64,000 nucleotides of DNA, from assembly GCF_020880975.1 (NCBI RefSeq), contig NZ_JAJIWP010000007.1:1-64000 (forward strand), in the 5' to 3' direction. The stretch is from Mucilaginibacter sp. UR6-1. Lineage in GTDB: Bacteria; Bacteroidota; Bacteroidia; Sphingobacteriales; Sphingobacteriaceae. Positions within the stretch are counted from its first letter, which is position 1. Each line of letters opens with the position of its first letter. Positions 4,645 to 6,034 of this stretch are shown one piece after another. The translations under genes and the position numbers were made by a program. Under the pieces are notes generated by a model, which worked only from the letters and a program-made list of their open reading frames with translations, made no database searches and was not told the DNA's origin.

Positions 4645-5742
4645 TTATTCAATAGTGCGCATTACACGGCTCCAGCGTATTTTATCCAATGGGCCTTTGG
4701 TGCTGTCAATACTCATAAAGGTGAGTACGGCCTTGCCCACCACATGATCCTCGGGTACAAAACCCCAGTAACGCGAATCTTCGGAATTGTGGCGGTTATC
4801 GCCCATCATCCAGTAGTAATTCATTTTAAAGGTGTAGCTGTCGGCCTTTTTGTTGTTGATGTAATAGCTGCCATTATCTTTCTTAATGGTATTATGCTCA
4901 AACAGGGTGATGTTGCGACCGTACAGGGCAACGGTTGAATCATTAAGCGTGATGGTCATGCCGCGTTTTGGTACCGTGATGGGGCCATAGTTATCCTGGT
5001 TCCAGTTATATAGTTCGCTTTGCGGATAAACGCTCAGATCCTGCTGGCCTTTTGGCTCAATAACCGGGGTGATAGATTTGATGTTGGATAAGCCCTTCAA
5101 TTGGTTAAAGCTATCTGTCGGGATTATCATCACATAATCATTAGCGTTAAGCTGTCCGCGAACTTCCACGTTCAGGTCTTGCAATAGTTCGGGGTTAATG
5201 GCATTGCCATCGGTACTCACCAGCCATGAGGTTTGCGCTTTGGGGGCATTCTTTAATTCATGGCCGTTCACTACCACTTTAGTATCAACAATACTTAATA
5301 CATCGCCGGGTGTTCCTACACAACGTTTAATATAATGCACACGCATATCAACCGGGTCTTTCGGTGTGCCGCCGGGGTAGTTGAACACTACAATATCACC
5401 GCGCTTTACTTCCGAAAAACCCGGCAGGCGGAAGTAAGGGAGCTTGATGGCATCCCAATAAGTTTTAATATCCGCGCTGGTTACGTGCGATTCCAGAAAG
5501 GGAATTGACAGTGGTGTGTTCGGCATACGCGCGCCATAGCTCAGCTTGCTTACAAAAAGGTAATCGCCCGTCATTTCGGTACCCTCCATGGAGCCGGAGG
5601 GGATAGCGTAGGCCGAAAACAGCAGGCCACGTACCACGGTTGATACCACCAGGGCGAACACCCCGGCATCGAGCCACTCGCGGGTGGCGCTTTTCTTTTT
5701 AGCGGGAGCTTGTTTTTTGCGCGAAAATGGGTTGAGCTTCAT
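4645..5742 (-). CDS. lepB: Signal peptidase I
   Basis: Signal peptidase I removes signal peptides from exported proteins at the cytoplasmic membrane. After a basic N-terminus there is one membrane segment (about residues 26-45). The catalytic Ser51 follows in IPSGSMEGT, and the general-base Lys139 sits in YIKRCVGTPGD. The late motif GDNRHNSEDSRYWGFVP is also intact. At 365 residues it is longer than E. coli LepB because of a large insertion between the Lys box and the GDN box (about residues 150-310), which is usual in Bacteroidota. It is convergent with xth. Confidence 0.95.
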   Translation of the reverse strand: MKLNPFSRKKQAPAKKKSATREWLDAGVFALVVSTVVRGLLFSAYAIPSGSMEGTEMTGDYLFVSKLSYGARMPNTPLSIPFLESHVTSADIKTYWDAIKLPYFRLPGFSEVKRGDIVVFNYPGGTPKDPVDMRVHYIKRCVGTPGDVLSIVDTKVVVNGHELKNAPKAQTSWLVSTDGNAINPELLQDLNVEVRGQLNANDYVMIIPTDSFNQLKGLSNIKSITPVIEPKGQQDLSVYPQSELYNWNQDNYGPITVPKRGMTITLNDSTVALYGRNITLFEHNTIKKDNGSYYINNKKADSYTFKMNYYWMMGDNRHNSEDSRYWGFVPEDHVVGKAVLTFMSIDSTKGPLDKIRWSRVMRTIE

Positions 5743-5859
5743 TATTATCAGTTTATTAAATGATATGCATTTAGATAATTTGACACACAGGATGTTACAA
5801 AAAGACCAAATATTTAATTATTATCTACTAAATCTATAGATATTATTACAATTATTTAT

Positions 5860-5893: not shown

Positions 5894-5971
5894 ATGAAAC
5901 TCTTTTTACACACCAGCCACCCTGTAAAATTTCCTGCAGCCTCGCCTAAAGGCTATATGTGTTGTTGTTGA
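5894..5971 (+). CDS. Small leader ORF ending in Met-Cys-Cys-Cys
   Basis: An ATG at 5894 opens a 25-codon ORF that begins MKLFLHTSHP and ends KGYMCCC before TGA at 5969-5971. It lies 63 bases upstream of the TonB-dependent receptor start, on the same strand, in a 292-base gene-free stretch. Three consecutive TGT codons directly before the stop are very unlikely by chance and suggest a cis-acting leader peptide. In actinobacteria, poly-cysteine leader ORFs mediate cysteine-responsive attenuation of downstream sulfur genes; a similar role here is inference. A metal-binding nascent peptide is the main alternative. I see no strong terminator between this ORF and the receptor. Confidence 0.6.
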   Translation: MKLFLHTSHPVKFPAASPKGYMCCC

Positions 5972-6034
5972 TGCCCGCTCCTCTTTGCGTTAATTAATAA
6001 TCACTATCACATACTATAACCACCATAATTTATA

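Follow-up and report, generated by a model that had tools for sequence, protein, structure and literature searches.

A conserved cysteine-codon leader before a TonB-dependent receptor gene of Mucilaginibacter: a putative cysteine sensor in sulfur assimilation

What is the role of a short open reading frame that ends in a run of cysteine codons and lies directly before the gene of an outer-membrane receptor? Such a frame is found in the window (the whole stretch of 64,000 nucleotides of Mucilaginibacter sp. UR6-1 that was analysed), where it precedes the gene of a TonB-dependent receptor (TBDT). A sequence-only reading of this DNA had described a 25-codon ORF with a Met-Cys-Cys-Cys-stop end before a 'SusD-less' receptor. 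Both descriptions are accurate: the ORF is present, its 3' end reads TGT TGT TGT TGA, its stop is separated from the receptor ATG by 63 nt, and no SusD follows the TBDT. The receptor gene is divergent from a signal peptidase gene (positions of the locus in Table 1).

Table 1. Features of the leader-receptor locus and of a metY riboswitch (window positions, unless a locus is named)
Feature	Position	Strand	Description
Palindromic putative transcription-factor operator, TCTACTAAATCTATAGA	5824..5840	+	17-mer, conserved in the upstream regions of orthologues
Leader ORF, MKLFLHTSHPVKFPAASPKGYMCCC (then stop)	5894-5971	+	25 codons, Met-Cys-Cys-Cys-stop end
(TGT)3 Cys-codon run directly before the stop	5960..5968	+	Proposed sensor and stall site
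Spacer, leader stop to receptor start	5972..6034	+	C-rich, G-poor; proposed Rho-loading (rut-like) region
TonB-dependent receptor (TBDT), 981 aa	6035-8980	+	PF13715 (CarbopepD_reg_2), PF07715 (Plug), PF00593 (barrel)
SAM-I riboswitch in L061 (G000:C1:838000-848500)	5263-5375	-	In tandem with a poly-Cys leader before metY; same tandem in the metY loci L236-L265

The string TGYTGYTGYTRA occurs 45 times in the 4.57-Mb genome, nearly always as an out-of-frame reading of another gene; hence, the bare string is not strong evidence alone, and it is the place and the conservation of the leader that exceed chance. Counts of the pattern ATGTGYTGYTGYTRA in 100 genomes (57 vs. 8 for the reversed control) were dropped, as many matches are out-of-frame readings of genes. 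The leaders of the window's own genome were listed from pattern searches, in which those ending in CC or in Cys together with other residues were possibly missed.

A search of 150 genomes of the genus gave a receptor match in 79, and the upstream DNA was read for 30 Mucilaginibacter-clade orthologues. All 30 carry a short ORF of 12-36 codons ending in two to six Cys codons, with CC at the corresponding place, at a distance of 50-74 nt from the receptor. The Cys run abuts the stop in 24 of these leaders, and one codon lies between them in the other six; both Cys codons, TGT and TGC, occur. A lack of homologous leaders before orthologous receptors had been named beforehand as an argument against the proposal, and the opposite was found throughout this set.

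Eighty named orthologues were added in a wider set (Pedobacter, Rufibacter, Adhaeribacter, Solitalea, Segetibacter, Hymenobacter, Chitinophagaceae and others), and the run was scored in the last nine residues of the short upstream ORF in 106 non-redundant loci. CCC was found in 46 and CC in 62 of them, counts that are not independent, as the orthologues are mutually related. Among runs of three of any other residue, the best is Leu (3/106), and Markov shuffles gave expectations of 0.07 for CCC (maximum 1) and 0.99 for CC (maximum 4). The Cys leader is absent before all 14 paralogous TBDTs compared (at most 45% identity, including the paralogue of the same genome). Most of the intergenic CCC leaders in the flanks, ~1.1 Mb in total, precede the TBDT receptor or other sulfur genes.

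Other short frames were read by eye upstream of the receptor. In L143, L146 and L148, a different leader has a conserved body close to LLLLFNGSGFFGDSLC and only one or two Cys; it may be a peptide-specific leader. In L185, L191 and L197, tiny ORFs with a single terminal Cys (MIENLKFRC, MFQNQKLRC, each followed by the stop) lie behind the operator.

The pattern of change within the leader is visible when the window is compared with its three closest relatives (receptors 95-97% identical). The 78 columns of the ORF contain no indel, compared to seven, of 1-2 nt each, in the 146 flanking columns (77 before and 69 after the ORF), so the frameshifting differences among close relatives that could have spoken against the leader are absent. 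In 18 other Mucilaginibacter-clade leaders, all the indels within the ORF are of 3 nt, whereas those in the spacer are many and of mixed length. Substitutions are spread about evenly over the three codon positions of the ORF (36/35/29), and the codon differences in the body are 4 synonymous vs. 67 non-synonymous. The pairwise difference is 0.214 for the whole ORF, 0.155 for the flanks and 0.028 for the last 18 nt, which hold the Cys run and the stop. An HTSHP-like part of the peptide body shows no conservation among orthologues. Judged from these alignments, the frame and the Cys run are under constraint, and the rest of the peptide varies freely. Such a combination points to a codon-sensing leader and not to an arrest or metal-binding peptide.

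The latter had been the second branch of the sequence-only reading, which allowed for a metal-binding nascent chain. A leader peptide that controls the receptor by binding metal, or as a sequence-specific arrest peptide, would suit the Cys-rich tail, and there is a precedent: the short ORF CruR of Bordetella pertussis, located before the gene of a TonB-dependent transporter, is reported to control this transporter (PMC9973294), with Rho-dependent termination. However, CruR responds to copper, and the targets here are sulfur genes, not metal genes. A conserved metal-binding and stalling motif of the CruR/CutF type was not found; only the terminal Cys run is conserved. Moreover, this run, at the extreme C-terminus of a 25-residue chain, would be inside the ribosome tunnel at termination. 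The metal-binding or arrest-peptide reading was rejected on the drift of the body, HTSHP-like part included, and is highly improbable.

A leader could also act without sensing, as a place where ribosomes enter constitutively and from which they reach the receptor gene by reinitiation. For Bacteroidetes, a proposal of reinitiation at leader genes concerns short distances, 11-14 bp (PMC4833913), but the Mucilaginibacter-clade spacers measure 50-74 nt, on which ground short-distance reinitiation was rejected, and it gives no account of why only the Cys codons are conserved. This function is very unlikely. That the leader is translated and acts on the receptor as a Cys-codon sensor is, on the contrary, very likely, as far as comparative data can tell.

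The receptor of the window shares 96% identity with the M. roseus receptor (L151), and comparison with solved structures gave only a weak match, in the plug domain, with the colicin I receptor. At least one sulfur gene is present in the examined flanks of 53 of the 80 named receptor loci, and a TauE/SafE permease in 45 of the 80, directly 3' of the receptor where inspected. Further genes of these flanks are cysI, cobA, cysJ, cysN, cysD, cysH, cysK, a metZ-like gene, siroheme genes and an Rrf2 regulator. The receptor adjoins cysH and siroheme synthase in other Mucilaginibacter-clade genomes; in the window's genome, it is located apart from the sulfur operon. The only strong Rrf2 gene of this genome (G000:C1:856369-856773) heads a sulfite reductase-cobA-siroheme-cysH-cysD-cysN operon (names read from the translations), ~13 kb from metY. 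The neighborhood thus assigns the receptor family to sulfur assimilation. The leader is quite probably a cysteine-sensing peptide controlling the TBDT of a sulfur-assimilation regulon. The sequence-only reading proposed sensing of Cys-tRNA by the leader and control of a receptor for a sulfur compound. This proposal has strong support from the Cys run, the frame, the place and the sulfur-gene context, all conserved across genera; its metal alternative is not supported.

Cys leaders also stand before PhyH-family dioxygenases near the receptor in L150, L152 and L154, with a YeiH-like gene (PF03601) in L150. These neighbors suggest the use of an organosulfur compound.

A second element, the palindrome TCTACTAAATCTATAGA, is located upstream of the leader. 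With up to three mismatches, it is found in 63 of 105 receptor upstream regions (0.3 expected from shuffles) and, with up to four, in 83 of 105 (1.7 expected). The exact sequence CTACTAAATNNNTAGA has one further copy in the genome, near a TlpA-like gene. The -7 box of Bacteroidota promoters is TAnnTTTG. In many Mucilaginibacter-clade loci, TATTTTTG is found immediately 5' of the palindrome and fits this box; hence, the palindrome would overlap the start site, as repressor operators do. It is probably bound by an Rrf2 regulator of sulfur assimilation, both the identity of this regulator and its binding being predictions. The CymR (Rrf2) cysteine regulons of Firmicutes likewise combine an Rrf2 regulator linked to sulfur-assimilation genes with a palindromic operator, although the Rrf2 protein examined here scores 79.7 bits against the CymR model, below the cut-off of 195.

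The distance from the start of the operator match to the leader ATG is 19 nt in many orthologues and 70 nt in the window. A leaderless start of the leader is therefore unlikely in the window, unlike in the mycobacterial poly-Cys leaders, which are leaderless sORFs whose first codon coincides with the transcription start or lies a few nt from it. Some orthologues possess the operator and no leader (Sphingobacterium, Chitinophaga, Dyadobacter and others), so that the receptor can do without the leader. As the operator lies close to the receptor in several genera without a leader, control of initiation is probably the older layer, and the leader was gained or lost.

Leaders of the same kind are found before other genes. 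The metY gene is preceded by a Cys leader in all 30 genomes of the genus that were read; most of these leaders end in C[I/M]CMCCC(C), the Cys run is at the stop or one codon off in 30/30, and both Cys codons are used. The core motif of a SAM-I riboswitch lies just 5' of the metY leader in all 30 (Rfam RF00162; the three loci scanned scored 71-80 bits). The stop of the metY leaders is followed by a conserved CACGU...ACGUG hairpin. Beyond the genus, CC is present in 7 of 20 metY leaders of another genus of the family and in 11 of 19 from another family of the class (Chitinophagaceae-like, an inferred name), where the leaders often end in CCMP. In the window's genome, the operator (at 831181 of G000:C6, L131) and a leader MKTQQLTSVKKITLHCQPSAGMCCCCN, directly followed by the stop, also precede a gene of the AhpC/TSA family.

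Several further loci are recorded as observations. Many metY leaders of the other genus (L266-L285) end in RMR and a stop (CGAATGCGATAG followed by TCGTC) instead of Cys, with the complement GACGACC downstream. In L107 (G000:C6, CCC site 701198-701209), a leader ending in MCCCC and a stop lies 61 nt before a serine carboxypeptidase-like gene. In L078, L018 and L027, a Cys leader precedes a Porin_O_P gene, and the next genes in L078 are PstS/PstC/PstA/PstB-like; the Porin_O_P gene and the Pst-like operon possibly encode a sulfate rather than a phosphate transporter.

The recurrence before metY also bears on a trivial explanation, a chance ORF or simple repeat with no function. It would be in line with the frequency of TGYTGYTGYTRA as an out-of-frame reading, but the leader has one conserved place across genera, keeps its frame and is absent from paralogues. 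A chance origin is extremely improbable.

How would a ribosome on the Cys codons affect the receptor gene? An intrinsic terminator between leader and gene, the hallmark of classical attenuators (trp/his type, uORFC-8-2), was looked for in the window and not found. The 30 orthologous spacers are C-rich and G-poor (C 0.271, G 0.052) compared to same-genus control upstreams of other genes (C 0.193, G 0.153; p = 3e-14, an optimistic value, like the other p values here, as the sequences are related). The control gene starts come from a simple ORF caller. The C excess is an argument of composition only, and general translation-start features may contribute to it. A rho gene is present in the genome. 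The missing terminator, the C-rich, G-poor spacer and the position of a stalled ribosome, which would cover the spacer start, favor Rho-dependent attenuation. Rho-dependent termination, as opposed to control of receptor translation, is given about an even chance of being the output step.

In the alternative, translational attenuation, the RNA of the Cys codons would pair with the spacer or a more distal element and lower receptor translation, and the stalled ribosome would block this pairing. There is a reported precedent in the cysteine genes of mycobacteria. Complementarity between the Cys-codon segment and the spacer is somewhat above dinucleotide shuffles, both for the Mucilaginibacter-clade TBDT leaders (z = -0.71, p = 0.0012) and for metY (z = -0.45, p = 0.012), and the leader-body control is not significant. 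At metY, in most species, AUGUGUU of the Cys codons is an alternative partner for the 5' arm of the hairpin, an arrangement similar to a translational or classical switch. However, in the Mucilaginibacter-clade TBDTs, base pairs between the leader and the receptor start are seldom predicted (mean probability mostly <0.1), RNAalifold revealed no conserved spacer hairpin among 18 orthologous TBDT leaders, and folding of the whole leader of the window gave a z-score of only -0.82. Translational attenuation is a tentative reading, possible rather than probable.

With Rho-dependent termination as the output, the switch would work as follows. The leader ORF would be translated and, with ample Cys-tRNA, the ribosome would finish and leave at the stop beside the Cys run, exposing the C-rich, G-poor spacer; Rho would then load and end transcription before the receptor. 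With a shortage of Cys-tRNA, the ribosome would stall on the Cys codons and cover the start of the spacer, keeping Rho off, so that the receptor would be made and a sulfur compound brought in. Initiation would be controlled at the upstream palindrome by a repressor, for which the CymR-like Rrf2 protein encoded at the head of the cys operon is the probable candidate. On a larger scale, it is somewhat likely that Bacteroidota possess a widespread, terminator-less cysteine-attenuation regulon. Its module would be a drifting leader with a Cys-codon end and a C-rich spacer, placed repeatedly before sulfur genes (those of a receptor family specific to a sulfur compound, metY behind SAM-I, the porin with the Pst-like ABC operon, and further targets); the promoter would carry an Rrf2-type operator.

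Poly-Cys leader ORFs of actinobacteria were reportedly treated by Canestrari et al. in 2020. Those of the Mycobacterium cys operons and of Bifidobacterium cbs (Seliverstov et al. 2005, PMC1262725) share with the present leader the short ORF, the Cys codons near the stop, the position before sulfur genes and the lack of a conserved terminator; Rho was suggested for them in the same study, as it is here. The present case differs by the phylum, the outer-membrane TBDT target, the metY leader behind a SAM-I riboswitch and the palindromic operator upstream. The uORFC-8-2 motif upstream of cysS in Rhodobacterales (Brewer et al. 2021, PMC8632094) is also a uORF with tandem Cys codons and proposed ribosome-mediated attenuation. 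However, it includes a U-run intrinsic terminator, and its target is the cysteinyl-tRNA synthetase, whereas the targets here, lacking a terminator, belong to transport and assimilation. In TnaC of the E. coli tna operon, a ribosome stalled at the leader stop blocks the loading of Rho on the adjacent spacer, as proposed here. TnaC, on the contrary, works through conserved residues of its peptide and free tryptophan, and excess switches it on; here, no conserved arrest residues of this type were found in the body, which drifts among the orthologues, and induction by shortage is expected. Of the traits of a Cys-codon attenuator in the broad sense, a conserved Cys-run ORF, sulfur-linked downstream genes and selection on the frame and sensor codons, not on the peptide body, are present.

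Within the Bacteroidota, a flavobacterium is mentioned as having amino-acid operons under leader attenuation (PMC9723704), and leader-like sORFs are described for Bacteroides (PMC7366714), in both cases without Cys. No such element in this phylum was known to the sequence-only reading; likewise, no description of a Cys leader in Bacteroidota was found in a search confined to the open literature. The same literature yielded no leader before a TonB-dependent receptor, except for the copper-responsive CruR.

If true, cysteine attenuation would be extended to a phylum for which no description of it was found. A translation-based nutrient sensor before a TBDT would point strongly to a sulfur compound as the substrate imported by this receptor family. 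At metY, the tandem of a SAM-I riboswitch and a Cys leader would form a natural two-signal switch, responding to methionine and cysteine status. Cys leaders may, furthermore, make unknown sulfur-uptake genes easy to find by sequence and would offer a handle on attenuation in bacteria with few Shine-Dalgarno sites.
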